Below are positions 18,804 to 39,561 of a DNA stretch of 39,977 nucleotides, piece by piece; positions within the stretch are counted from its first letter, which is position 1; each line of letters starts with the position of its first letter. The notes beneath the pieces are model-generated. The model made no database searches and had not been told where the DNA came from. It saw only the letters and a program-made list of their open reading frames with translations. This stretch comes from Cytophagales bacterium. GTDB lineage: Bacteria; Bacteroidota; Bacteroidia; Cytophagales; Thermoflexibacteraceae. The position numbers and the translations under genes were made by a program. Location of the stretch: assembly GCA_013298985.1 (NCBI GenBank), contig JAAFJS010000022.1:1-39977 (forward strand). The letters are read 5' to 3'.

Positions 18804-20186
18804 ATGAAAAAACTTCAATTTGCTTTGTTTCTTTTCTGCTTTGCGTGTGGCAGTAATTACAACGACCCGCAGACACTTTCGGAGTTTCACACCAAGTACG
18901 TTTGGAAACCCAATAGCGCACAAACAAAGGCAAGTGATTCCTTAGAGGTCTATATCGACTATTCTTCAGGTATGTACGAGGCGATGTATCATTCCCTAAA
19001 CACTGTCATCAATGACGTGCTGACCATCGCCAAAGATGAGAAAACTAAGTTTTTCCGCGCAGGAGCTACCTCGCCCTATCAGGTTGATATTGAGGCAAGT
19101 GAGCATATTCCCTCTACTACTACCAACTACAAAGAAAACCGTTCTGTGCTGGACGAACCCATCAGGCGAATCGTCAAAGGCAATAAACAAGGCGTTTTCA
19201 TCACTGATTTTGAGTTTGTTCCCACAGGTCAAAAAGTTTTTGAAGCAGCAATGCCTGATGGCAAACGCGTCAAAACTTGGATTAATCCTGACGCATGGGC
19301 TACCAATCTTTTTGAGGATTGGCTCAGAAAAGGCAATCAGATTGATATTTTTGCGTGTGAGTTTCGTAAATCACCACAGCAATTTTTGTATGTATTAGTT
19401 TTTACACCACAAGGTATGCTGGGTAAGGATAACGCCCTGATAACGAGGCTCAAACAATTAGATAGCCGACTTTCTGATAACTTTTATCACTTCAATTTTT
19501 TTAGTTTGAAAAACACCAAAGCGATTACCAAAGACTATGATGCCAACTTTGGCGGGCTAAATGAAAACCTTGCCGCCTTAGATTTTCTTTACAAACCCGA
19601 ACGCAATTTTGACTATTACGAAGTGCCACTAAAAGATATAGAAACCTATATTTCCAACGAGGCAAGCGTCAAAGACAAGCGTATTTTGCGAAAAATATTT
19701 CTCGAAGGAGATTTACAACAGTTTGAAAATGTAGAGATTAGCTTGAATACACATCGCATTTCTGATGTTTTTGGTCTTTACCAACAAAGCCAAGACCAAG
19801 CACCACCAGCCTACGAAAAAGACCTCGAAACAGGCGATTCTACACTGGTTTCGGGACAACAAATGGTTTTTACTTATACCGAAGGCGATGAAGTAAAAGA
19901 CATTTTTGAGTCTGTTTTTAATAAGGAAAGCAAGGAAATAGGCATCAAAATCAAGCCCGATTTCTATGGCACTGACAACAAAAGTGAGCTTTATCGCATA
20001 GATTTATTGCTCAAAAATGCAAATTTCAAGGAAACGCCAGAGATGAAAAGAGTATTGCAATGGACTGATAAACAGGGTTTTACTGTTCCTTCGCTTTACC
20101 TGAGCATTACAGAAGCAATGCGTCGCGCAGAGAAAACCGCCAAAGATAAACCACTTTATACCTATTATTTGAAACTGGATTTTTAG
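18804..20186 (+). CDS. unrecognised lipoprotein with a VWA-like DYSSGM motif
   Basis: This is a 460-aa protein from the ATG at 18804. That start gives a clean signal peptide (MKKLQFALFLFCFACGSN), whereas the frame opens 18 codons earlier inside gldH. The lipobox CFAC (Cys15) is imperfect. The start of the mature part (about 48-60) reads SLEVYIDYSSGMYEAM, resembling strand 1 and MIDAS of a von Willebrand A domain but with Gly where the second Ser belongs. GVFITDFEF (about 128-136) could be a following core strand. A C-terminal beta-rich region starts near 280. It follows gldH by 46 bp and is likely co-transcribed. I do not recognise the family. A degenerate VWA-like fold is an inference. Confidence 0.75.
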   Translation: MKKLQFALFLFCFACGSNYNDPQTLSEFHTKYVWKPNSAQTKASDSLEVYIDYSSGMYEAMYHSLNTVINDVLTIAKDEKTKFFRAGATSPYQVDIEASEHIPSTTTNYKENRSVLDEPIRRIVKGNKQGVFITDFEFVPTGQKVFEAAMPDGKRVKTWINPDAWATNLFEDWLRKGNQIDIFACEFRKSPQQFLYVLVFTPQGMLGKDNALITRLKQLDSRLSDNFYHFNFFSLKNTKAITKDYDANFGGLNENLAALDFLYKPERNFDYYEVPLKDIETYISNEASVKDKRILRKIFLEGDLQQFENVEISLNTHRISDVFGLYQQSQDQAPPAYEKDLETGDSTLVSGQQMVFTYTEGDEVKDIFESVFNKESKEIGIKIKPDFYGTDNKSELYRIDLLLKNANFKETPEMKRVLQWTDKQGFTVPSLYLSITEAMRRAEKTAKDKPLYTYYLKLDF

Positions 20187-20287
20187 GGGAATCATAAGCT
20201 GCTTATTTTGCAACAAATAATTTCATACACTTCCTTGTAATTAGGCAGGGATACTCGCGCGCGCTTCACTAAAAAAGTAATTTTTTG

Positions 20288-20349
20288 ATTTCTAACCACG
20301 TTCTAATGATTCTTAGACGATTTCTAATCTGTTATTAACGCCGTTTTAA
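20288..20349 (+). promoter_or_regulatory. 11-bp-phased array of TTCTAA-like motifs before efflux operon
   Basis: Six related octamers follow one another: ATTTCTAA (20288), CGTTCTAA (20299), GATTCTTA (20308), ATTTCTAA (20320), GTTATTAA (20331) and CGTTTTAA (20342). Start spacings are 11, 9, 12, 11 and 11 bp, one helical turn each. The array ends 49 bp before the chosen tolC ATG. OmpR/PhoB-type response regulators are known to bind direct repeats with 11-bp spacing, so a metal-responsive regulator is plausible. The repeats are seen. The regulator is inferred and none is encoded next to it. Confidence 0.55.
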
Positions 20350-20398
20350 TACTCCTTACGTTAATTTGTATATCAAAGTAAAGCTACTTACTACCTCC

Positions 20399-21706
20399 AT
20401 GAATATACAAATTATCATAGCTCGTATTATTGCTTTTATAGCCTTGTTTTTTGCTTTCATAGCACCTATCAAAGCCCAAAATGCAGATACACTGCGGTTT
20501 TCTCTCTCTGATGTAGAAAGAATTTTTTTAGAAAAAAACTATGCTTTGCTTGCCCAAAAATACAGTATTAGCATGGCGCAGGCGGCTATCACGCAGGCGC
20601 GACTACTGCCAAATCCCAATTTTTCGTTTATGGGAAACTTCATCAATCCTAACACAGGTCAGCTACTTCCTTTTGGAAAAGTGAGTGCTGATGATGTAGC
20701 AAATCAGGTTTACAACAAAAACCAAGTTGTTTTCCAAGTCCAGCAACTGATTTATTTGGCAAAAAAGCGGAGTAAATTAGTGCGTTTGGCAGAATCCAAC
20801 AGTCAGTTACAGTCTTTGGCTTTCGAGGACTTGGTTCGCACCCTGCGCTATCAGCTTTACACGACTTATGCTAATCTTTACTTTGATTTTAAGGGCTACG
20901 AACTCTTGCAAATTGAGGAAAACAAACAAGAAGATTTGGTCAGGGCATTCCAAGCACTTTTGCCGCAAGGTGGTGTTTCAACCTATGAAGTTACGCGCTT
21001 AGAGGCAGAGCTTCAATCGCTGAGGGCAGACATCATCGACCTGAAAAGGCAAATCTCAGATGAACAGGCTACACTGCGGATTTTTCTTTTGCAAAAAGAA
21101 AATGCCATCATCAAGCCTACCAATTTTAGCGTGAATAATACTACTCTGCCATCACTAAAATTGGCATTGGATTCCGCCTTAGCAAGTCGCCCTGACCTCA
21201 AAATCACTTTTGAGCAGGCAACCAATGCCAACTTGGGCTTGAATTTAGAACGTGCGCGCAGGCTACCCGACCTTACCCTGGGGCTTAACTACGAATCTTA
21301 TGGAAACGCTTACAGGAACTTTGTAGGCTTGTATGGGGCGATTGACCTCCCCTTGTTCAACCGCAATCAGGGCAATATCAAAATGGCAGAAATTAGGGTA
21401 GAAACCAGCAAAAAGGCAATAGAAAATCAGGAAGTAATAGCCCAAAGCGAAGTAGCAAATGCGTATCAAAAATTACAAGACCTGTACGAACTCAATGCAA
21501 ATATAACGCAAATTTATCGAGATAATTTGCAGAATATCAGCACCGAAGCCATTAAAAATTATAACAGAAAAGTCATTAATCTACTGGATTACTTGGACAA
21601 GATTCGCACCTACAAGCAGGCACAAATAAACCTGATAACCTTGGAAAATAACATTTTTTTGCAACAACAATATTTTAATTATGTAACCAATACAAAGTTT
21701 TTCTAA
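20399..21706 (+). CDS. TolC-family outer-membrane efflux protein (CusC/CzcC-like)
   Basis: This 435-aa protein starts at the ATG at 20399, which places a proper signal peptide at the N-terminus (cleavage near IKA-Q, about 26). The frame begins 11 codons earlier, but those residues precede the hydrophobic core without purpose. The two-fold TolC repeat is visible: helical blocks LEKNYALLAQKYSISMAQAAI and SLKLALDSALASRPDLKITFEQA each start a repeat, and RLPNPNF/RRLPDLTLGLNY-type strands follow. It is the first gene of a tight operon (16 bp and 18 bp to the next two genes) encoding a heavy-metal-type tripartite pump. Confidence 0.9.
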   Translation: MNIQIIIARIIAFIALFFAFIAPIKAQNADTLRFSLSDVERIFLEKNYALLAQKYSISMAQAAITQARLLPNPNFSFMGNFINPNTGQLLPFGKVSADDVANQVYNKNQVVFQVQQLIYLAKKRSKLVRLAESNSQLQSLAFEDLVRTLRYQLYTTYANLYFDFKGYELLQIEENKQEDLVRAFQALLPQGGVSTYEVTRLEAELQSLRADIIDLKRQISDEQATLRIFLLQKENAIIKPTNFSVNNTTLPSLKLALDSALASRPDLKITFEQATNANLGLNLERARRLPDLTLGLNYESYGNAYRNFVGLYGAIDLPLFNRNQGNIKMAEIRVETSKKAIENQEVIAQSEVANAYQKLQDLYELNANITQIYRDNLQNISTEAIKNYNRKVINLLDYLDKIRTYKQAQINLITLENNIFLQQQYFNYVTNTKFF

Positions 21707-21722
21707 GACAAAAATAAAGATT

Positions 21723-22808
21723 ATGAAAACTATCATTTTGATTTTCACGCTTATTTTGCCTCTTTTTATGCTTTTTTCATGCAAACACGAAGAAAAAGCA
21801 AGCGCACAAGTTACTACACAAGTATTCGAGAACATCTATCAAACGGATACGGTCAAATTGGCACATATAGAAGACGAACTCGTACTAAACGGCTCGGTTT
21901 CCTTTGACGAAGACAGTGTAGTACATATTTTTCCCATGGTGAGTGGAAAAGTAGAAATCGTCAAAACGCAATTAGGTGCTTTTGTAGAAAAAGGACAGGA
22001 ATTAGTCTTTATCAAAAGTGCAGACATTACCAATCTCATCAAGGATTATGAGGTCGACAAGGCAAACTTAGCCTTGGCAAAGAAAAACTTGCAAAATTCA
22101 GAAGCACTTTTCAAATCGGGGTTTGCCTCCGAAACAGACCTTCTGACAGCAAAAAAAGAAGTGGCTAATTACCAACAAGAACTCTCAAGGGCGCAAGAAG
22201 TATTGCGAATCTATGGAGGGGCTACGCAAGCAAACAAGCCTTTTTTTGTGGTCAAAGCACCTATTTCTGGCTATGTCGTACAGAAAAATGTCAATGCAGG
22301 ACAGGAAATGCGGGCTGATAATTCAGAGGCGATGCTTACCATCTCGAACCTACACACCGTTTGGGTGATGGCAAATGTCTATGAAACGGACATTGCTGAC
22401 ATTAAGCTGGGACAGGCGGTCGAAATTCATACGCTTGCTTATCCAAATACTGTTTTTTCAGGAAAAATCTCTAACCTAAGTAATGTACTTAATGAAGGCT
22501 CGCGCGTGATGAAAGTGCGTATAGAAATAAACAACAAAGATGGGCTACTCAAGCCCAATATGTTTGCTTCTATTCATTTACACTTAGTTCAGCCCGATAA
22601 AATGCTCACTATCAGCCCCAAAGCATTGATTTTTGACAATGACAAATACTATGTAGTCAAGGTGGATAGCACCAATGCTTTTGCCATCAGGGAAGTTCAG
22701 ATGATAAAAAACACCTCGAAATACGTGTATGTCAAAGGGAATATCAAGGCAGGCGAGTACATCTTGACGGAGGGAAGTTTATTGGTTTTTAATGAATTAA
22801 CAAATTAA
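21723..22808 (+). CDS. CzcB/CusB-like RND efflux adaptor lipoprotein
   Basis: This 361-aa adaptor has lipobox LFSC (Cys20), so it is probably anchored by lipid rather than a helix. The barrel and lipoyl halves are VVHIFPMVSGKVEIVKTQLG and VVKAPISGYVVQKNVNAGQ, flanking a short coiled-coil hairpin (about 100-165). The beta-barrel and membrane-proximal region continue with VWVMANVYETDIADIKLG, typical of the heavy-metal branch. There are no His-rich or Met-rich N-terminal metal motifs, so the metal cannot be named. It lies 16 bp after tolC and 18 bp before the pump gene. Confidence 0.9.
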   Translation: MKTIILIFTLILPLFMLFSCKHEEKASAQVTTQVFENIYQTDTVKLAHIEDELVLNGSVSFDEDSVVHIFPMVSGKVEIVKTQLGAFVEKGQELVFIKSADITNLIKDYEVDKANLALAKKNLQNSEALFKSGFASETDLLTAKKEVANYQQELSRAQEVLRIYGGATQANKPFFVVKAPISGYVVQKNVNAGQEMRADNSEAMLTISNLHTVWVMANVYETDIADIKLGQAVEIHTLAYPNTVFSGKISNLSNVLNEGSRVMKVRIEINNKDGLLKPNMFASIHLHLVQPDKMLTISPKALIFDNDKYYVVKVDSTNAFAIREVQMIKNTSKYVYVKGNIKAGEYILTEGSLLVFNELTN

Positions 22809-22826: not shown

Positions 22827-25800
22827 ATGAATAAGCTCATTCAATACATTATTGCTTTTTCTCTTAAAAACAAAGCCTTTATTTTTATCTGTACAGCTTT
22901 ACTGGTTGCGGCGGGTACATTCAGTTTTTACCATACACCTGTAGAGGCATATCCTGATGTTACTAATACAGAGGTAGTTATCATTACGCAGTGGGCTGGG
23001 CGAAGCGCAGAAGAAGTAGAACGCTTTATTTCCATTCCTATTGAAACTGAGATGAACTCCATTAGCCGCAAGACCTCTATTCGTTCTATCAATATTTTTG
23101 GCTTGTCTTTTTTCAAAATTATTTTTGACGACGGGGTGGATAACTTTACTGCGCGCACCGAAGCTGCTCTCAAGCTGGCAAACGTCGACCTGCCCGATGG
23201 CGTAAGTGCCGAAGTGCAGCCGCCTTATGGTCCCACAGGTGAGATTTATCGATATTCACTCACCAGTCAGACTAAAACAGTGGTCGAACTCAAAACTATC
23301 CAAGATTGGGTGATTGACAAGCAACTAAAAGCGGTGGCTGGTATTGCAGACGTGGTTAGCTTTGGCGGAAAAGTCAAAACTTTTGAGGTAAGTGTAAATC
23401 CTGCACTCTTGGCAAAGTACAATTTTACTGCCTTAGATGTATATGGTGCAATCCAGAACGCAAATATCAATGTGGGTGGCGATGTGATTAAGCAAGGGCA
23501 TCAATCTTTTGTAGTGCGCGGGATTGGTATGCTAAAAAATGTACAAGACATTGAAAATGTGATTGTTGACAATGTAGAAGGCGCGCCTATCCTCATCAAA
23601 AATGTGGGAACAGTGCGCGAGAGTTTTCAGCCACCCTTGGGCATTGTAGGGCGCGATGGCAAAGATGATGTAGTAGAGGGAATTGTACTGATGCGAAAAG
23701 GTGAAAATCCTGGCGACGTTTTGCCTGCATTAAAGGCAAAAGTAGCGTACCTAAACAGTACGGTTTTGCCCGATGATGTGCGAATTAAGGTATTTTATGA
23801 CCGTACCGAACTGAATAATCATACCTTACATACGGTTTCCGAAAATGTGATATTGGGCATTACGTTGGTAACAGTGATTTTATTGGTTTTCTTGGCAGAT
23901 TGGCGCACCACAGTTTCGGTGGCAGTAGTAATTCCGCTTGCCTTACTTTTTGCCTTTATTTGTATGAGAATCAAGGGAATGACCGCTAATTTGCTATCCA
24001 TTGGGGCAATAGATTTTGGGATAATCATAGATGGCGCAGTGGTGATGGTAGAGGGTATTTTTGTTACTTTGGCACTCCAAGCCGAGCAGTTGGGCATGGA
24101 AAAGTTTAACAAACGCGCAAAACTGAGCAGTATCTGGAAAACAGGCTCAGAAATGGCAACGTCCATCGTAACGTCCAAACTCATCATTATCACTGCCTTA
24201 ATTCCTATTTTTGCTTTTCAAAAAGTAGAAGGAAAACTATTCTCGCCCCTTGCTTATACCGTTAGTTTTGCCCTGATTGGTGCTTTGATACTGAGCCTTA
24301 CCCTCATTCCTGTCCTGACAAGTATTCTCCTGAAAAAAAATGTCAGAGAACGCCACAATCCATTGATTGGATTTCTAAACAGAAATTATGCCCCACTGCT
24401 GGACAGGGTGATGCACAAACCTAAGATTAGCATTGCGGTTGCGGTGGTTATCTTAGCGATTGCTTTATTTTCCTTCCAATTTATAGGCTCGGAGTTTTTA
24501 CCTCACCTAAACGAAGGCTCGATTTATGTACGCGCAACTATGCCGCTATCTATCTCATTAGACGAAAGTTATCATTATACCAAGAAGTTCAGAGAAGTAT
24601 TTAGGCAGTTTCCCGAAGTGCATGGCGTAATGTCCCAGACAGGTCGCCCCAATGACGGCACAGACGCAACAGGCTACTTTAATGAAGAATTTTTTGTGGA
24701 TTTGTTCCCCCAAGAGCAGTGGAAGCGAGATATTTCCAAAGAAGAATTAATCGCAGAAATGCAAGCAAAACTGGCAAATTACCCTGGGGTAAATTTCAAT
24801 TTTTCTCAACCTATCTCGGATAACGTAGAGGAAGCAGTTTCTGGCGTAAAAGGCTCTATCGCCATCAAGGTTACAGGACAAGACTTAAATGTGCTTGATG
24901 CTAAGGCAGATACAATCTATGCTACTATGTCAAAAATTGAAGGCGTAGCCGACTTGGGTGTTTTTCGCAATTTAGGGCAACCCGAACTCAGAATCACACT
25001 TTTACAAGAAAAATTAGCACTCTACGGCATTGATATTGCCGACTGTAACGCAGTAATAGAAATGGCAATTGGCGGCAAGGGCATCAGTCAAGTTTATGAA
25101 AATGAACGCAAATTTGATATTCGTCTGCGCTACGACCTGCCCTATCGGTATTCACCCAAACAGATTGGCGAACTACTTGTGCCTACACTCAAAGGCGACA
25201 AAATTCCGTTGAAAGAAATCGCAGAAATTAAGAACGTAGCAGGGGCGGCGTTCATTTACCGAGAGGACAATACGCGCTTTATCGCGATTAAATTTTCTGT
25301 TCGCGGGCGCGACTTGGGCAGTACCATCAAAGAGGCGCAGCAAAGAGTGAGCAAAGCCATTCATCTGCCCAAAAGCTATGAACTCAAATGGAACGGCGAG
25401 TTTGAAAATAAAGAACGTGCTGAGAAAACCCTCCTGTTTGTCGTCCCTATTAGTATTCTGACTATATTTTTCATTTTATTTATTTCATTTGGAAGCGTGT
25501 TGGACTCCGCATTGGTCTTGCTCAATGTACCTTTTGCACTGATTGGAGGCATTGCGGCACTGCTGCTGACTGGGGTTAATTTCAGCATCTCGGCGGGCGT
25601 AGGTTTTATTGCACTCTTTGGCGTAGCTACGCAAGACGGCGTGATTCTGGTCAATAAATTTCGCCAAAATCTGAAAGACAAAATGCCTTTGGTGCAGGCA
25701 ATCAAAGAAGGCGCAAAAAGTCGTCTGCGCCCTGTGGTGATGACCGCACTGATGGCAAGTTTGGGCTTGCTTCCTGCGGCAGTTTCTACAGGCATCGGCT

Positions 25801-25946
25801 CTGAAACCCAAAAACCGCTTGCGATTGTGGTGATAGGAGGACTAATTACGGCTACAATTCTGTCTTTACTCATCTTACCTACGGTTTATGAGTTTGTGTA
25901 TAGCAGCCGTAAGGACTTAAAAAAGATAGCGCGTGAGCATATATAA
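22827..25946 (+). CDS. CzcA/CusA-family heavy-metal RND efflux pump
   Basis: This 1039-aa inner-membrane proton/substrate antiporter is the usual length for the HME-RND family. It shows the standard plan: helix 1 (about 11-31), periplasmic loop with EAYPDVTNTEV, helices 2-6 (about 340-500), a second loop, then helices 8-12 (from about 870). In helix 4, DFGIIIDGAVVMVE (Asp396, Asp402) is the motif associated with divalent-cation (Czc-like) rather than Cu/Ag pumps. The C-terminal GVATQDGVILVNKFRQ and SRLRPVVMTALMASLGLLP are conserved RND blocks. With the preceding TolC and adaptor it forms a complete tripartite system. Zn/Co/Cd/Ni specificity is likely but not proven. Confidence 0.94.
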   Translation: MNKLIQYIIAFSLKNKAFIFICTALLVAAGTFSFYHTPVEAYPDVTNTEVVIITQWAGRSAEEVERFISIPIETEMNSISRKTSIRSINIFGLSFFKIIFDDGVDNFTARTEAALKLANVDLPDGVSAEVQPPYGPTGEIYRYSLTSQTKTVVELKTIQDWVIDKQLKAVAGIADVVSFGGKVKTFEVSVNPALLAKYNFTALDVYGAIQNANINVGGDVIKQGHQSFVVRGIGMLKNVQDIENVIVDNVEGAPILIKNVGTVRESFQPPLGIVGRDGKDDVVEGIVLMRKGENPGDVLPALKAKVAYLNSTVLPDDVRIKVFYDRTELNNHTLHTVSENVILGITLVTVILLVFLADWRTTVSVAVVIPLALLFAFICMRIKGMTANLLSIGAIDFGIIIDGAVVMVEGIFVTLALQAEQLGMEKFNKRAKLSSIWKTGSEMATSIVTSKLIIITALIPIFAFQKVEGKLFSPLAYTVSFALIGALILSLTLIPVLTSILLKKNVRERHNPLIGFLNRNYAPLLDRVMHKPKISIAVAVVILAIALFSFQFIGSEFLPHLNEGSIYVRATMPLSISLDESYHYTKKFREVFRQFPEVHGVMSQTGRPNDGTDATGYFNEEFFVDLFPQEQWKRDISKEELIAEMQAKLANYPGVNFNFSQPISDNVEEAVSGVKGSIAIKVTGQDLNVLDAKADTIYATMSKIEGVADLGVFRNLGQPELRITLLQEKLALYGIDIADCNAVIEMAIGGKGISQVYENERKFDIRLRYDLPYRYSPKQIGELLVPTLKGDKIPLKEIAEIKNVAGAAFIYREDNTRFIAIKFSVRGRDLGSTIKEAQQRVSKAIHLPKSYELKWNGEFENKERAEKTLLFVVPISILTIFFILFISFGSVLDSALVLLNVPFALIGGIAALLLTGVNFSISAGVGFIALFGVATQDGVILVNKFRQNLKDKMPLVQAIKEGAKSRLRPVVMTALMASLGLLPAAVSTGIGSETQKPLAIVVIGGLITATILSLLILPTVYEFVYSSRKDLKKIAREHI

Positions 25947-25993: not shown

Positions 25994-26488
25994 ATGGAAA
26001 CATTAGATTCAACAGTGGGAGTTTATTCTTCCCACAAAAAAGCGTTAGACGCAGTAAAAGAACTGCAAAATGCAGGTTTTGATGTAAGTAAAATTTCTTT
26101 ACTGGGCAGTGCCAAAATAGAGGACGAGCATCTGCACATTATAGACGAGGAAAAAGTCTTTGACAAGACTACCGCAACAGGCTCTATTTTAGGTACTGTA
26201 GTAGGTGCATTGGCAGGAATGAGCCTGATTACGGTACCAGGCGTAGGTTTGCTGTATGCAGCAGGTGCTTTGGTAGGTGCTGTTGGTGGATTTTCTATTG
26301 GTTCATTAGGTGGTGGTATAGCTGGAGCATTGCTTGCGTTGGGTGTAGGCAAAGATGGTATTTTGACCTATAAAAATCACTTGAAAGCAGGTAAGTTTCT
26401 GGTCGTAGTTCATGGTTCAGCAGAAGATGCACATAAAGCACATGAAATTTTGGTCGGGACAGAACACCACGAAGTAAACAAACATTGA
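25994..26488 (+). CDS. YflT/general-stress-17M-like protein
   Basis: This 164-aa protein has an N-terminal alpha/beta domain (VGVYSSHKKALDAVKELQNAGF, about 8-29) typical of YflT-like heat-shock-induced proteins. A glycine/alanine-rich helical hairpin (about 60-125), GSILGTVVGALAGMSLITVPGVG, follows and resembles glycine-zipper membrane segments. A second small alpha/beta repeat (KAGKFLVVVHGSAEDAHKAHEIL) ends the protein. Such proteins are induced by general stress, with no known chemistry. It starts 47 bp after the pump and is closed by a strong terminator at 26518, so it may share the metal-efflux transcript. Confidence 0.8.
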   Translation: METLDSTVGVYSSHKKALDAVKELQNAGFDVSKISLLGSAKIEDEHLHIIDEEKVFDKTTATGSILGTVVGALAGMSLITVPGVGLLYAAGALVGAVGGFSIGSLGGGIAGALLALGVGKDGILTYKNHLKAGKFLVVVHGSAEDAHKAHEILVGTEHHEVNKH

Positions 26489-32999: not shown

Positions 33000-33030
33000 T
33001 TGGACAATTCATTTTTTTCTTTTTACTTTG
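33000..33030 (+). promoter_or_regulatory. probable promoter of tetR-type gene
   Basis: TTG at 33000-33002, 20 nt, then TTACTTTG (33023-33030), one mismatch to TAnnTTTG. Initiation near 33037 would give a leader of about 17 nt to the ATG at 33054. Just upstream, CAAATAGTTAAA (32971-32982) is repeated before the next gene. Confidence 0.5.
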
Positions 33031-33053
33031 TGGCATCATATAAAAAATCAGAC

Positions 33054-33692
33054 ATGACAGAAAGCAATAAAACAGCGATTATCAAAGACCAGATATACCT
33101 CTCTACCGAAGAAAAAATCATAGTAGCAGCACGCAAAGTATTCACTAAGAAAGGCTTATCGGGCGCACGTATGCAAGACATCGCAGACGAGGCAGGCATC
33201 AACAAGGCTTTATTGCACTATTATTTTCGTAGCAAGGACAAGCTATTTGAAAAAATATTTGAGGAAGGAAGCAAAAAAATGTTTATGACCGTAAACGCAT
33301 TGGTGGAAAGTGCAGACCTCAATTTATTCCAAAAAATAGAAAAAATAATAGAGGCACATATACAAATAGAAATAGAAAACCCATATATTCCTGCTTTTAT
33401 TATGAATGAAGCAAATCAAAACCCTGAATTTATTAAAAAATTTTTGCAAGATACCATCAAACTGCCAATTAAACTGGTAGAGCAAATCCAAGAAGGAATC
33501 AACTTGGGGCATATTAGACCCATTAATCCAGTGCAACTTTTTATGAATATTATGTCATTAAGTGCCTTTCCTTTTATTGCAAAGCCTATTTTCCAGACTT
33601 CTTTTGGCATAACTGACGAGCAGTTTTTTATGCTCATGGAGCAGCGCAAAAAGCACGTAGTCGAGTTTATCATCAATGCCATAAAGCTTTAA
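33054..33692 (+). CDS. TetR/AcrR-family transcriptional regulator
   Basis: This 212-aa regulator starts at the ATG at 33054. The open frame extends 18 codons upstream to a TTG, but that part overlaps the promoter region and is not conserved-looking. The N-terminal HTH is classic: EEKIIVAARKVFTKKGLSGARMQDIADEAGINKALLHYYFRSKDKLFEKIF (about 20-70). The C-terminal ligand domain includes EANQNPEFIKKF and ends FIINAIKL. It precedes a TolC-adaptor-RND set on the same strand by 69 bp and very probably controls it in response to a pump substrate. Ligand unknown. Confidence 0.93.
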   Translation: MTESNKTAIIKDQIYLSTEEKIIVAARKVFTKKGLSGARMQDIADEAGINKALLHYYFRSKDKLFEKIFEEGSKKMFMTVNALVESADLNLFQKIEKIIEAHIQIEIENPYIPAFIMNEANQNPEFIKKFLQDTIKLPIKLVEQIQEGINLGHIRPINPVQLFMNIMSLSAFPFIAKPIFQTSFGITDEQFFMLMEQRKKHVVEFIINAIKL

Positions 33693-33714
33693 ATTTTTTT
33701 GAACTCAATTTGAC

Positions 33715-33753
33715 CAAATAGTTAAATCATTAAATAAAATCATTTAGTTAAAA
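33715..33753 (+). promoter_or_regulatory. candidate operator: CAAATAGTTAAA repeated
   Basis: CAAATAGTTAAA at 33715-33726 is identical to 32971-32982 upstream of the tetR-type gene. A related TTAGTTAAA follows at 33744-33752. Both sites border the genes that the regulator would be expected to control. The motif is not a clean palindrome, which is unusual for TetR proteins, and the region is AT-rich, so chance is possible. Confidence 0.3.
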
Positions 33754-33761
33754 ATAAACCA

Positions 33762-35081
33762 ATGAAAAAATATCTCTTTGTCATTATCATTTTTCTGTGG
33801 TTTTTCAGTCTGGCACACGCGCAGACGACTGTACTGAGCTTGGAGCAGTGCATTACAAAAGCATTGCAGGAAAACCTCAGCATCAAATCTGCTCGCTATG
33901 AGATAGACCTGACCCAAGACAAAATCAGCGAAGTCAAGGCGGGCTTGTTTCCGCAGGTCAATCTCAGTGCTAATTATCAGTATAACACACAGATAGCCAC
34001 TCAATTAGCTCCCGCAGCCGCTTTTGGCGGTAAGCCTGGCGAATTTCGTGCTTTGCAGTTTGGCGTGCCTACTACCACAACCGTAGGCATTGTGGCAAAT
34101 CAGGCATTGTTTAACGCACAACTTTTTATAGGACTGAGGGCGGCAAAGACAGCGAGTGAGCTTTCCCAGTTGCAACTGATTAAAAGTCAAGAAGATGTCG
34201 TATATAATATAAGTGCTACCTATTATAACGCCCAAAGTTTAGCACAACAGATTGAGTTGTTAAAAAAGAATTTGACTTCTATGCTCAAACTTACGGAAAT
34301 TACTAACTTGCTCTATCAGAACCAGTTAGCAAAGAAAACGGACGTAAATCGTTTGGAAGTGAATCGTGCAAACTTAGAAACACAAATTGAAAATTTACAA
34401 AATACTTATACACAGCTTATTAGCTTATTAAAGTTTCTTATCAATACTCCCCAAGAAACACCTTTGGAAATCCAAACTGATGTGCAAACAGACCTGAATG
34501 TACTTACACAGGAAGCTGGTAATGCAGAGCAACGCACTGATTATAAGCTACTTGAAGTATATAAAATCCTCAACGGGTATGAGCAAAAAGTAATCAGTAG
34601 CGGCTATTTCCCTATTGTTTCCCTTGTAGGGCAGTACGCACGCCAAGGTTTTGCTAAGTCAGGCGAACTTGCTTATACCTCATTTCCAGTGAGTTTTGTG
34701 GGCGTACAGTTGCAAATGAATCTCTTTGACGGCTTCAATAAAATGTTCAAAATGCGCCAAAAGAAAATAGAACTCAAAAAATTGGACAACCAAGTGCTGA
34801 TGTTCAAGGAAAATACAAATCGTGAAATGGTAAATGCACGTAATACCTTGAAAGTCAATCTAAAAACTCTTACTTTTCAGCAAACTAACATGAATCTGGC
34901 GCAAAAAGTCTATGAGCAAACGCAACTCCAATTCAAGGAAGGAATCGTAGGCATCAATGACATTTTGAACTCCGAAAACGCACTCAAAGAGGCACAAACG
35001 AACTATCTGACTTCTTTGGTGAAGGTGAGAATGGCTGAATTGGAATTGAAAAAAGCAAACGGAACATTGATAAATAAATGA
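33762..35081 (+). CDS. TolC-family outer-membrane efflux protein
   Basis: This 439-aa protein has a signal peptide (cleavage at AHA-Q, residue 20). The TolC double repeat is visible: LSLEQCITKALQENLSIKSARYEIDLTQDKI and LLEVYKILNGYEQKVISSGYFPIVSLVGQY, each followed by strands and long coiled-coil helices. A C-terminal TQLQFKEGIVGINDILNSENALKEAQTNYL is typical of the family. It forms the outer-membrane channel of the tripartite pump with the two following genes, and is separated from the adaptor gene by a 176-bp spacer full of short iterated motifs. Confidence 0.92.
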   Translation: MKKYLFVIIIFLWFFSLAHAQTTVLSLEQCITKALQENLSIKSARYEIDLTQDKISEVKAGLFPQVNLSANYQYNTQIATQLAPAAAFGGKPGEFRALQFGVPTTTTVGIVANQALFNAQLFIGLRAAKTASELSQLQLIKSQEDVVYNISATYYNAQSLAQQIELLKKNLTSMLKLTEITNLLYQNQLAKKTDVNRLEVNRANLETQIENLQNTYTQLISLLKFLINTPQETPLEIQTDVQTDLNVLTQEAGNAEQRTDYKLLEVYKILNGYEQKVISSGYFPIVSLVGQYARQGFAKSGELAYTSFPVSFVGVQLQMNLFDGFNKMFKMRQKKIELKKLDNQVLMFKENTNREMVNARNTLKVNLKTLTFQQTNMNLAQKVYEQTQLQFKEGIVGINDILNSENALKEAQTNYLTSLVKVRMAELELKKANGTLINK

Positions 35082-35088
35082 AATGCAA

Positions 35089-35160
35089 AATCTGGAATGA
35101 AAATGCAAAATCTGGAATCTGGAATGAAAAATTACCAATTACCAATGACTAATTAATAAT
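35089..35160 (+). repeat. iterated ATCTGGAAT / AATTACC motifs in spacer
   Basis: Tandem-like AATCTGGAAT units (35089-35125), the reverse complement of the ATTCCAGAT iteration in the permease leaders, run into AATTACCAATTACCAATGAC. Similar short iterations (CTATCTAACTATTAAGC; ACTAATTACGAATAACTAAT) occupy the rest of this spacer and the next one (36305-36399). Non-coding. Confidence 0.65.
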
Positions 35161-35257
35161 AAATACAAGCAATACTATTTCGTCTTATACTACCCAAAAG
35201 AACAATATAACCATTCAACTATCTAACTATTAAGCTATTTAATCATTCAAAAAATAT

Positions 35258-36304
35258 ATGAAAAAATTAATCATTGCGCTTGTTATAGTTGTTGCTATCG
35301 GCTTGACTGCATGGAAGTTATCGGAAAATAAAAAGGTGGCAGAGGAGAAAGTTTATCGCAACGACCCCAATACCAAAGTGTTGGTCAAAACAGGCAAAGT
35401 TATTCTCCAAGAACTCCGTCAGCCACAAACTTGGCTCGGCACGTTTGAGCCAAATCGTGAAATTAGAATTTTAGCTGAAACGAACGGCAAGGTCGTCAAG
35501 GTAGGTATCAGCGAGGGCGACCGCGTCAGTGCAGGGCAGTTAATTGCCCAAGTAGATAGCGATATTCTTCAATATCAGCTACTTGCGGCGCAGGCAAATT
35601 ATGATGAAACCCAAGCAGATGTGAAGCGTTATCAAAACCTCACCAAAGGCGAAGCGGTTGCCCAAATTCAATTAGAAAAGGCAAATTTGGCGGCAAAAGC
35701 AGCAGAATCTCAACTGAAAGTTTTACAAAAACAGTTGAAAAATACGACAATTGTTGCGCCTTTTAGTGGCACGATTACAGCGAAAATGTTTGACTTAGGT
35801 TCAGTGCTTGGCGCAGGCGCACCTTTGGCACAACTCACTGATATTTCAGCAGTTAAGTTAGTAATTAATGTGCCAGAAAAGGACATTTTGAAGTTCAAAG
35901 AAGGGCAAAGTGTCAATGTGGCTACGGACGTTTTTCCTGAGCAGCAGTTCGCAGGGAGAGTAAGCATGATAAGTGCCAAAGGTGATAATGCCCACAACTA
36001 TCCTGTGCAGATTTTGGTGAGCAATAGCAATGCAAATCTCTTGCGTGCGGGTATGTACGGTTCAGTAGTTTTTGATAACGTACTCAGTGCAAGCACTTTG
36101 ACCATTCCTCGCGCAGCACTGATAGGTACGGCAAAGCAACCGCAAGTGTATGTAGTAGAAAATGGAAAAGCGCAACTGCGTGATATTCAGATAGGTGCAG
36201 GAACAAATGAGTTTTATGAGGTGATTGCAGGCTTGAAGGAAGGTGAAACTATCATTCTTAGCGGTCAGGTAAACTTAGAAAATGGAATACTCGTGAGAGA
36301 ATGA
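35258..36304 (+). CDS. RND efflux periplasmic adaptor (AcrA-like)
   Basis: This 348-aa adaptor has an N-terminal membrane helix (about 4-19) and no lipobox. The lipoyl halves are ILAETNGKVVKVGISEGDRVSAGQ and IVAPFSGTITAKMFDLGSVLGAG, flanking a short helical hairpin (about 105-160). Then come the beta-barrel (AVKLVINVPEKDILKFKEGQSVNVATDVFP) and a membrane-proximal domain with RAALIGTAKQPQVYVVENG. It lies between tolC and the RND pump and completes the system. Confidence 0.92.
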   Translation: MKKLIIALVIVVAIGLTAWKLSENKKVAEEKVYRNDPNTKVLVKTGKVILQELRQPQTWLGTFEPNREIRILAETNGKVVKVGISEGDRVSAGQLIAQVDSDILQYQLLAAQANYDETQADVKRYQNLTKGEAVAQIQLEKANLAAKAAESQLKVLQKQLKNTTIVAPFSGTITAKMFDLGSVLGAGAPLAQLTDISAVKLVINVPEKDILKFKEGQSVNVATDVFPEQQFAGRVSMISAKGDNAHNYPVQILVSNSNANLLRAGMYGSVVFDNVLSASTLTIPRAALIGTAKQPQVYVVENGKAQLRDIQIGAGTNEFYEVIAGLKEGETIILSGQVNLENGILVRE

Positions 36305-36399
36305 ATGAATGACTAATCATTAATGACTAATTACGAATAACTAATTATTAATGAGATGACTAACTACAAACTATCTAACCATTTAACTATTTAATTAAG

Positions 36400-39300
36400 A
36401 TGAGTTTAACAGAAATAGCAATCAAACGACCTTCACTTATCATAGTGATTTTCAGTGTGTTGGCTTTGGGAGGAATTTTTGCCTACCAAAATTTGGGGTA
36501 TGAGCTGATGCCAGACTTTTCACCACCTGTCATTACGATTACCACCGTTTATCCTGGTGCATCACCTTCGGAAGTCGAAAACTCGGTAACAAAAAAAATA
36601 GAAGATGCAATTTCAGGCTTGGAAAATATTGATGACATCACTTCCAAATCACTGGAAAATGCCTCGATTGTGATTGTCAATTTTAAGCATGGTACAGACC
36701 TCGATTTGGCTACTCAAGATGCACAGCGCAAGATAGATAACATGAAGCGCACCATGCCTGCGGAGGTACAATCGCCTACGATTTCTAAAATTGCGATTAA
36801 TGACCAGCCTATCATGCAGGTTTCTGTCAATTCGAATCTGCCTGATAAAGTGATGTTTGCTAAAATGAAAACAGAGATTTTACCTCAGTTACAGCAACTC
36901 AAAGGCGTAGCACAGATAGATATGCTTGGCGGAGAAGAAAGGCAGGTACGCGTAAATGTGGACAAGGAGAAACTCCAATTTTATAAAATTTCCCTTTTAC
37001 AAGTTACACAGGCAATTAAGCAGGCAAATATGGAATTTCCAACAGGGAAGGTAAAAGGTGCTGATAATCAGATGACTGTAAAGCTGGCAGGGAAAATATC
37101 CTCCATGGACGATTTGAAAAACTTGGTCATTTTTACACCTATGAGTGGCACTCCGCCAATGGGTAGCCCTATCCGATTGAGTGAGGTGGCAGAAATTATT
37201 GATGGCGTGAGAGATATTTCGAGTGTGATTCGTTTTAATGGACAAAATGGAATTGGGCTGCGAATTAAAAAACAAGCTGATGCAAATGCAGTTTTAACAG
37301 CAAAAACGATTCGCCAGAAAGCCACAGCGTTAGAAAAAAAATATGCTAAAGAGGAGTTGAGATTTATCATTGCAGATGATGTTTCTTTGTTTACCTTAGA
37401 CTCTGTTAATGCTGTGGTGCATGATTTAGAAATTGCCATTGTCTTGGTTTCTTTGGTGATGTTAGTTTTCCTGCACAGCTTGCGTAACTCGTTGATTGTG
37501 ATGATTTCCATTCCTGCTTCTTTGGTTTCTTCGTTGCTGGCGATGTGGCTCATGGGCTACACATTGAACCTAATGACTTTGCTGGCAATGAGTTTGGTGG
37601 TGGGGATTTTGGTAGATGACTCGATTGTGGTGTTAGAAAATATTTATCGGCACTTAGAAATGGGCAAAGACAAGCGGCAGGCGGCTTTGGACGGCAGAAA
37701 TGAAATTGGTTTTTCTGCGATTTCTATTACGCTGGTCGACGTGGTTGTGTTCCTGCCTATCACTTTTGTAAATACAGTGATTGCAGATATTTTGCGTCAA
37801 TTCTCTGTGATTGTGGTCGTTACGACCCTGATGAGCTTGTTCGTTTGCTTTACACTTACGCCTTGGCTCGCCTCCCGTTTCTCGCAGGTTACGCACCTGA
37901 ACCCAAAAAATCCCTTGCAATGGTTGTTAATTCAATTTGAGAAAGGGTTGGACAGTTTTACGAATGGATACGTCAAATTGGTGCGCTGGGCGTTAAACCA
38001 TAAATTGATAACGCTGGGCATGATTGTTTTACTTTTTGTGGGCATTGGACAGGTGATGAAGTTAGGCATTTTGGGGCAGGAATTGGTAGCGCAAGGTGAC
38101 CAAGGAAAATTTATACTAAGAATGCAATACGACAAAAACACATCTTTGCAGCGCAACAACTTAGTTACCAAACAGATAGAAGATTATATTTTGAAAAAAC
38201 CCGAAGTAGATTATGTCTATTCAAATGTGGCAGGCTCTACCACAGGTGCATTTGCCTCTGGCTTGGGTTCGGAAAATAGGTCAGAAATGACGGTGCAGTT
38301 ATTACCTACTTCACAGATAAATCGGGTAAGTTCAGAAAAATATATGATTCAGGTTCGCAAGGAGTTAGCAGAAAAATTTGCGAGTATTGATATCTCTTCT
38401 TCTGTAATAGGGCTGGTAAATTCAGGGCAGGCTCCCATTGAAATTATACTCAGTGGCGAAAATTATGAACAAGTGATTGCAACGGCTAATAAGCTGAAAA
38501 CCTTGATTGTAAACACACCAGGCGCAAATGATGTGCAGGTTTCGGTAGAGGCAGGTAATCCCGAACTGCGAATAGAGCTGGATAGAGAGAAAATGGCGCA
38601 GTTGGGTTTAAATATCGCAACCGTAGGCGCGACATTGCAAAATGCTTTTTCGGGAAATGACGATTCCAAATACCGCGAAGGCGGCAACGACTACGATATT
38701 CGAGTGATGTTAGATGCCTTTGACCGCAAAAATCCCGAAGATGTCAAGTCTGTAGCCTTCCTCAACGCGCAAGGACAACTGATAAAACTTTCTCAATTTG
38801 CCAAAATTACCCAAAGCACTGCGCCTTCCGTTTTGGAGCGCAAAGACCGCAGAGGCTCAGTTACAGTAACTTCGTATAACCTGGGGCGAGGCTCTGGTAC
38901 AGTTGCCCAAGACATTGATAAACAGCTCAAAGCCAACCCATTACCCGCAGGCATTGACCTCAAATGGGGCGGCGACATCAAGCGACAAAATGAGTCTTTT
39001 GGGGCGATGGGGCTGGCATTGCTTGCTTCTTTGGTCTTGGTGTATCTGATTATGGTCGCGCTTTATGACAATTATATTTATCCTTTTGTGGTGCTTTTCT
39101 CGATTCCTGTGGCAATGATTGGCGCGTTGCTGGCACTGAATCTGTCCATGTCCAATTTCAGTATTTTTGCAGGGCTGGGCGTGATTATGCTCTTGGGTTT
39201 GGTGATGAAAAACGCGATTTTGATTGTCGATTTCACCAATCACCTCAAAGAAAAAGGCAAGAAAACGTATGACGCACTGCTCGAATCGGTCAAAGAACGT

Positions 39301-39561
39301 ATGCGCCCTATCCTGATGACTACGGTGGCAATGGTATTCGGCATGATTCCGATTGCGATAGCGAAGGGCGCAGGTGCAGAGTGGAAAAATGGCTTGGCGT
39401 GGGTGCTGATTGGCGGTTTGCTCAGTTCGATGTTTCTCACCATTGTCCTCGTGCCTGTAATGTACTATACAGTAGATTTGGCGAAAGAGAAACTGGAAAA
39501 GTGGTTTGGTGGGAAGAAACAGGTCGTGAGTGAGGAACTGACAACGGTGGAAGTGGAGTAA
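36400..39561 (+). CDS. AcrB-family (HAE1) RND multidrug efflux pump
   Basis: This 1053-aa inner-membrane pump is of normal length. The opening LTEIAIKRPSLIIVIFSVLALGG, GYELMPDFSPPVITITTVYPGASPSEVE and helix 4 SLVVGILVDDSIVVLENIYRHLE (Asp406-Asp407, the proton relay pair) are family hallmarks. The later helix with GLGVIMLLGLVMKNAILIVDFTNH carries the relay lysine. Two large periplasmic loops separate helices 1-2 and 7-8. It ends in an acidic tail (VSEELTTVEVE) and is followed at once by a hairpin and a strong terminator. It forms a tripartite exporter with the TolC and adaptor upstream. Substrate unknown, and TetR control is likely. Confidence 0.95.
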   Translation: MSLTEIAIKRPSLIIVIFSVLALGGIFAYQNLGYELMPDFSPPVITITTVYPGASPSEVENSVTKKIEDAISGLENIDDITSKSLENASIVIVNFKHGTDLDLATQDAQRKIDNMKRTMPAEVQSPTISKIAINDQPIMQVSVNSNLPDKVMFAKMKTEILPQLQQLKGVAQIDMLGGEERQVRVNVDKEKLQFYKISLLQVTQAIKQANMEFPTGKVKGADNQMTVKLAGKISSMDDLKNLVIFTPMSGTPPMGSPIRLSEVAEIIDGVRDISSVIRFNGQNGIGLRIKKQADANAVLTAKTIRQKATALEKKYAKEELRFIIADDVSLFTLDSVNAVVHDLEIAIVLVSLVMLVFLHSLRNSLIVMISIPASLVSSLLAMWLMGYTLNLMTLLAMSLVVGILVDDSIVVLENIYRHLEMGKDKRQAALDGRNEIGFSAISITLVDVVVFLPITFVNTVIADILRQFSVIVVVTTLMSLFVCFTLTPWLASRFSQVTHLNPKNPLQWLLIQFEKGLDSFTNGYVKLVRWALNHKLITLGMIVLLFVGIGQVMKLGILGQELVAQGDQGKFILRMQYDKNTSLQRNNLVTKQIEDYILKKPEVDYVYSNVAGSTTGAFASGLGSENRSEMTVQLLPTSQINRVSSEKYMIQVRKELAEKFASIDISSSVIGLVNSGQAPIEIILSGENYEQVIATANKLKTLIVNTPGANDVQVSVEAGNPELRIELDREKMAQLGLNIATVGATLQNAFSGNDDSKYREGGNDYDIRVMLDAFDRKNPEDVKSVAFLNAQGQLIKLSQFAKITQSTAPSVLERKDRRGSVTVTSYNLGRGSGTVAQDIDKQLKANPLPAGIDLKWGGDIKRQNESFGAMGLALLASLVLVYLIMVALYDNYIYPFVVLFSIPVAMIGALLALNLSMSNFSIFAGLGVIMLLGLVMKNAILIVDFTNHLKEKGKKTYDALLESVKERMRPILMTTVAMVFGMIPIAIAKGAGAEWKNGLAWVLIGGLLSSMFLTIVLVPVMYYTVDLAKEKLEKWFGGKKQVVSEELTTVEVE

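Follow-up and report, generated by a model that had tools for sequence, protein, structure and literature searches.

Upstream of a TolC-adaptor-CzcA operon for metal efflux, the genome studied here (G000) carries an array of TTCTAA-like boxes at 11-bp pitch. We read this array, with a probability of roughly 85%, as the operator of a CusR-like response regulator of the OmpR/PhoB family that would activate the operon, and which in this genome would be encoded elsewhere, with a regulator on contig C18 as the best candidate. The array is an observation on the window, by which we mean the whole stretch of 39,977 nucleotides that was analyzed. That a protein binds it, that binding activates rather than represses, that a metal is the signal and that the C18 regulator is the one involved are points which we infer from sequence comparison.

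A phased box array precedes the efflux operon

The array lies in the intergenic stretch 20187-20398, which is flanked by the gene that comes just after gldH and ends at 20186, and by the operon. The latter comprises genes for a TolC-family outer-membrane efflux protein (20399-21706, plus strand; Pfam OEP), a CzcB-like periplasmic adaptor (21723-22808, plus strand; Pfam HlyD_D23 and RND_mfp) and a heavy-metal RND pump of the CusA/CzcA family (22827-25946, plus strand; TIGR00914, 936 bits against a cut-off of 701). Directly 3' of the pump gene, a small gene with a sub-threshold YflT match (25994-26488) is perhaps the fourth of the operon. Another RND pump operon of the window is found at 33000-39561, with a TetR-family gene in front of it.

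A preliminary description had listed six related boxes at 20288-20349 with start-to-start spacings of 11-9-12-11-11, reading the letters of the third box as TTCTTA at 20310. We derived a 6-nt box profile from six arrays found in other genomes, so that the window did not contribute, and linked its matches into chains in which 11 bp was the favored step and steps of 9, 10, 12 and 13 were penalized. On the plus strand this profile places C-type TTCTAA boxes at 20290-20295 (box 1), 20301-20306 (box 2) and 20322-20327 (box 4), a weak TCTTAG (box 3, profile score 0.4) at 20311-20316, 10 nt after box 2, a partially matching TATTAA (box 5) at 20333-20338 and the promoter-proximal TTTTAA (box 6) at 20344-20349, the last starting 21 nt before a TTTG. 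The helical phasing of the boxes thus stands, but the exact steps do not: we replaced them by 11-10-11-11-11, with a degenerate third box, and both boxes 3 and 5 are poor matches to the profile. As the step from box 2 to box 3 is 1 bp short, the array may consist of two parts, namely four promoter-proximal boxes and a distal pair.

The window chain scores 32.9, a value reached by none of 2,000 and none of 20,000 dinucleotide shuffles (shuffle maximum 28.4), while the second-best chain in the 40-kb window scores 19.0 and the best chains in 165 kb of other DNA from the same genome score 24.6 and 23.7. The six boxes are therefore present where they had been described, and the concern that shuffled AT-rich sequence would yield equal arrays does not hold for the conserved box. 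Under a loose rule (TTCTAA with up to two mismatches, spacing 9-12, six or more boxes per chain) chains appear in 132 of 5,000 shuffles and in 10 of 751 window tiles, a rate that is not tiny, and a motif-free self-match of the window alone at lag 11 is marginal, being equalled in 269 of 5,000 shuffles. Because looser rules find the array only mildly unusual, the strong case for it rests on conservation. Pairs of the form TTCTAA-N5-TTCTAA with up to one mismatch are not enriched genome-wide (50+53 against 71+76 for the reversed pattern), and we rejected such pairs alone as a genome-wide signature. Exact pairs occur at five sites in the genome, the window's own included, and the other four form no long arrays in the profile chain scan.

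The phasing is conserved upstream of orthologous operons

We collected regions upstream of orthologous operons from relatives and from named genomes (Siphonobacter, Dyadobacter, Runella, Arcicella, Pseudarcicella and others), 42 loci in all (L031-L050 and L088-L109), 37 of which were usable; L036, L041, L097, L099 and L104 had no usable region upstream of TolC. Many of these regions contain four boxes of the form TTTTAAT, TTCTAAT or TTTAAGG at 11-bp pitch. A score-filtered autocorrelation over the orthologues was set aside because its regions had been chosen by an 11-bp chain, which makes it partly circular, and we hence relied on unfiltered lag counts, from which the near-duplicates L032, L040, L093 and L095 were omitted. 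For 32 operons taken without any score filter, the 300 bp that precede TolC contain 50 pairs of YTAA at lag 11, 30 at lag 22 and 16 at lag 33, compared to 0-9 at every other lag. At lag 11, 500 shuffle sets gave a mean of 2.9 and a maximum of 9 pairs, control tiles from the same loci gave 0.6, and at least one such pair is present in 20 of the 32 regions. The 11-bp phasing is thus conserved in orthologous upstream regions.

Besides the window, 22 of the 37 operons reach a profile score of at least 20 and 15 fall below it. The array is absent from all five Dyadobacter loci analyzed (profile scores below 20), three of which (L090, L091 and L103) possess a divergent regulator pair of another type instead. 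Six boxes in series, previously regarded as more than usual, do exceed the four that are usual in this group, but are not exceptional, as the array before the pump of Siphonobacter sp. SORGH_AS_0500 (L088:7354-7477) forms a chain of 12 members, several of them weak, with spacings of 9-13. In two Runella genomes (L100:7035-7463 and L108:7090-7494) a small lipoprotein-like gene, without a Pfam match for the one tested, lies between array and TolC; at the Dyadobacter loci a secreted protein of similar size adjoins the divergent regulator pair.

A model, R1, built from 17 orthologue arrays with the window excluded, ranks the window site first of 25 matches at E<=10 in the 6.06-Mb genome (E 0.019). 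The sixth-ranking match (E 0.41) is a weaker array on contig C360 (G000:C360:12497-12554, locus L123), located before a further gene of the TolC type; some 2.5 kb downstream lies a CzcA homologue.

The pump itself is 74-77% identical to those of Siphonobacter, Dyadobacter and Runella (77% for Siphonobacter) and 58% identical to the best copy within the genus, which suggests horizontal gain, or loss in kin; judged by these identities, its own history may differ from that of the genome. We rejected the contig as a contaminant of the bin, as its mfd gene is 86% identical to that of the same-genus genome G001; the identity to mfd of a second such genome (G002, in two pieces) is 82-86%.

The array is held at a fixed distance from a putative -7 element

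The distance from the start of the last box to a TTG preceded by A, T or C is exactly 21 nt in 19 of 23 arrays, 20 nt in two and 22 nt in two. It is also 21 nt in 35 of the 40 loci of a second held-out set (see below), a figure that is partly circular since these loci were found with R1, whose model includes the TTTG. The conserved TTTG corresponds to the end of the Bacteroidota -7 box TAnnTTTG, described at -12 to -5 in Flavobacterium psychrophilum (PMC9723704). The putative -7 element of the window, TTAATTTG at 20361-20368 on the plus strand, deviates from this consensus by one mismatch and lies at the distance fixed in the orthologues. From a -7 box at -12 to -5, transcription is predicted to start at 20373 on the plus strand, which would put the last box at about -29 to -24. 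Because of this location the array would stand in place of the -33 element, i.e. at the position of a class II activator. Relative to the predicted start, the array therefore has the placement expected of an OmpR/PhoB operator, upstream of or replacing the -35/-33 element.

Arrays in relatives adjoin response regulator-kinase pairs

At several orthologous loci a response regulator gene and a CusS-like kinase gene, confirmed by Pfam for one pair, directly precede the array. Run on 198 genomes of this class at E<=1e-4, R1 identified 20 sites in 16 genomes, one of the sites (L150) being among the arrays used to build it. A CusS-like kinase gene ends just upstream of 15 of these sites, a divergent regulator-kinase pair stands beside two, and three (L180, L184 and L186) have neither, so that regulator-kinase pairs are linked to 17 of the 20. 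As a rough baseline, a kinase (L135, L137, L140 and L076) or a regulator (L068) matched at five of 49 weaker sites of the genome under study. Since the arrays of relatives mostly adjoin CusRS-like pairs, we read the array as an operator of the OmpR/PhoB family, whose tandem direct repeats at 10-11 bp pitch it also shares. Linkage to, or covariation with, a winged-helix response regulator is seen in relatives; in this genome the array is unlinked. The OmpR/PhoB-type reading already put forward in the preliminary description thereby gains support from the linkage as well as from the covariation of residue and base given below.

The genes 3' of the class-level arrays vary and include outer-membrane efflux proteins (identified by eye), a SulP permease, a SLAC1 channel and a bestrophin, with one case each of the latter three examined by Pfam; within the order, a DabA gene is also found 3' of such an array. 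The architecture therefore belongs to the regulator class and not to one pump. SulP-like permease genes and a gene for a DabA inorganic-carbon transporter lie behind the arrays at L145, L146, L151, L152, L171 and L172 (Pfam for L145 and L172 only), which suggests carbon or pH regulons under the same class of regulator.

No response regulator or kinase was detected by Pfam in the 24 ORFs scanned from the window, nor by two HMMs across its whole length. The claim that no regulator gene is adjacent hence holds for these two protein types, but has to be qualified by the TetR gene 7 kb downstream, which precedes the other pump. A cognate regulator-kinase pair beside the efflux operon, as in CusRS and CzcRS systems, is thus missing from the window and present in several relatives. 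Phosphate genes downstream, as expected of a PHO box of the Pho regulon, are not found here, the downstream operon being that of a metal pump.

One residue of the recognition helix covaries with the third base of the box

At loci with linked regulator and array, the residue before L-R in the recognition helix is Tyr in combination with TTCTAA boxes and Phe in combination with TTTTAA boxes. The discovery set comprised 32 loci with a linked response regulator; L043 was dropped, and L207, which has Leu, was counted as neither Tyr nor Phe. The rule was written down before either of two held-out sets was fetched, both of which were found with R1, a model that includes both box types and the TTTG. 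In the first set (40 loci fetched, all but L275 scanned; of these 39, 19 with a linked Tyr or Phe regulator and 20 without a regulator) C boxes accompany Tyr at 8 of 8 loci and Phe at 0 of 11. The second (40 loci fetched; 23 with a Tyr or Phe regulator, 14 without a regulator, and L287, L292 and L319 with another residue or another protein) has C boxes with Tyr at 7 of 7 loci and with Phe at 2 of 16, in each case as a single, most distal box. Taken over all 72 linked loci, C boxes are present at 32 of 32 Tyr loci, and any C box is present at 2 of 40 Phe loci; none of the 40 Phe loci has a C in the four promoter-proximal boxes, a cut that was defined after the two distal C boxes (L281 and L318) had been seen. 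Tyr-type arrays also contain T boxes, so that the code as seen would be that Phe needs T and that Tyr takes C and tolerates T.

The last version of the regulator tree omits L033, L259 and L318, whose branches are long or doubtful. Eight changes of the residue fall on this tree, five or more of them across well-supported branches, and in five of five independent contrasts on such branches the box switches together with the residue (p 0.0625). The recognition-helix column is the best of 302 alignment columns, carrying 0.998 of the 0.998 bits of the box label compared to 0.464 for the next, and it aligns with Tyr220 of M. tuberculosis PhoP.

These data bear on two readings in which no response regulator is needed. 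An unrelated factor that reads direct repeats as a cooperative multimer might bind the array, as the MerR-like protein BldC does with its direct repeats (PMC5859096). The adjacency of arrays to regulator-kinase pairs at 17 of the 20 class-level sites, together with a third box base that follows one residue of the regulator's helix, makes this very improbable. Even less credible is that the phasing works without a protein, as intrinsic curvature or as an AT-rich promoter feature. T/A-rich boxes in helical phase can bend DNA, and the loose definition finds similar chains in shuffled sequence at the rate given above; against this, the conserved letters are specific (TTYTAA), are present in GC-rich relatives too (e.g. 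L037) and switch between C and T with the regulator's Tyr and Phe.

A candidate regulator is encoded on contig C18

The C boxes of the window predict a Tyr-type regulator, and the C18 regulator is the only one of this genome. Among seven PF00486 regulators, it alone possesses Tyr at the recognition position by alignment (helix ...VDVYVNYLRNKIDK), the residue found with TTCTAA boxes in relatives; the other six show Lys or Arg. It is encoded on the minus strand (G000:C18:1924-2613) together with a kinase (513-1922), and is 54% identical to the regulator beside a TTCTAAT array in G040 and 39-50% identical to the other array-linked regulators compared, against 23-36% for the remaining six. Within the genus it is conserved, with identities of 89% and 84%, and in four genomes of the same family the regulators nearest to it (47-48%) stand in the order regulator, kinase, TTCTAA array. 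In the tree it forms a long branch without close kin among the linked regulators, the nearest rows by path being mostly of the Phe type, and for this reason it is by its helix residue and overall identity that we assign it. On these two grounds, we consider the C18 regulator probably to be the one that acts on the window array in trans.

Alternatively, the operator could be read by another of the seven OmpR-family regulators or by one in the unassembled part of the genome. The C18 pair adjoins unrelated genes (one that looks DUF485-like by eye, and a small one in divergent orientation) and not an efflux operon, and an array of this type was looked for next to it in this genome and not found. 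Furthermore, an OmpR-family regulator on contig C36 has its own upstream 11-bp phased array in opposite orientation (G000:C36:3746-3793, L112), by which it is possibly autoregulated, and the assembly is fragmented into 383 contigs at 98.26% completeness. Given the Lys or Arg and the lower identity of the other six regulators, we nevertheless hold this alternative to be unlikely.

With the C18 regulator as the preferred candidate, metal stress, the assumed signal, would activate the C18 kinase and thereby yield phosphorylated regulator, whose subunits would most likely line up head to tail on one face of the DNA, each occupying an 11-bp unit. The proximal subunit would cover positions of about -29 to -24, in place of the missing -33 element, and contact RNA polymerase at the -7 box (20361-20368), so that a filled array would recruit polymerase to this box and induce the pump, with extra upstream units adding cooperative occupancy.

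Comparison with known systems and implications

The arrays resemble the PHO boxes of PhoB and PhoP in E. coli and Streptomyces, which are described as 11-nt direct repeats, bound head to tail, in unit numbers that vary by operator (PMC4415409), but differ from them in box letters and regulon, in that four or more units are usual and in being locked to the Bacteroidota -7 element. The box of PmrA/BasR, also an OmpR/PhoB regulator, consists of the half-sites CTTAAT and CCTAAG, five bp apart and head to tail (PMC3973317), hence likewise at 11-bp pitch. There are two half-sites there, compared to four to six or more boxes in the arrays here. The recognition position of PmrA is presumably Asn, in contrast to the Tyr or Phe of the array-linked regulators.

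In the DNA complex of M. tuberculosis PhoP, Tyr220 hydrogen-bonds the C of a TCACAGC motif, and three and four tandem 7-bp motifs with 4-bp spacers were bound more tightly than two (PMC4832192). This tighter binding is the closest experimental support for the proposed role of extra units; the motif differs from ours, and the parts of that report on which we draw describe no Tyr/Phe switch. AgrR of Cupriavidus metallidurans, a response regulator for silver resistance, is reported as a type II activator at poor -35 elements, with extra in-phase direct repeats at some sites (PMC7380067). It thus resembles the proposed regulator in controlling metal-resistance genes and in these repeats, but its core site is the inverted repeat ATKACANNNNTGTMAT (PMC7380067), whereas we saw direct repeats only. 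Our literature search, which drew on parts of the sources, returned no description of such a recognition code or of such arrays in Bacteroidota.

More generally, we find it somewhat more likely than not that a large clade of CusR-like response regulators in Bacteroidota, with the helix motif (D/E)-V-Y-x-x-[Y/F]-L-R, reads base 3 of TTYTAA as C with Tyr and as T with Phe, and that its arrays are 11-bp polymerization tracks with between four and some ten units, whose distance from the TTTG of the -7 box is fixed at 21 nt. Such a code would make orphan arrays assignable to unlinked regulators from sequence alone. If this code is true, a Tyr/Phe exchange in the regulator should exchange the C/T preference.

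To our knowledge, operators in Bacteroidota have seldom been assigned to their regulators except in systems for sugar use. With a conserved promoter geometry and a single-residue code, many two-component systems of the phylum could be paired with their promoters from sequence, among them those for metal pumps, for SulP and DabA transporters and for anion channels. For the window, an orphan array would thereby become a specific, candidate regulator-operator pair that is open to test.
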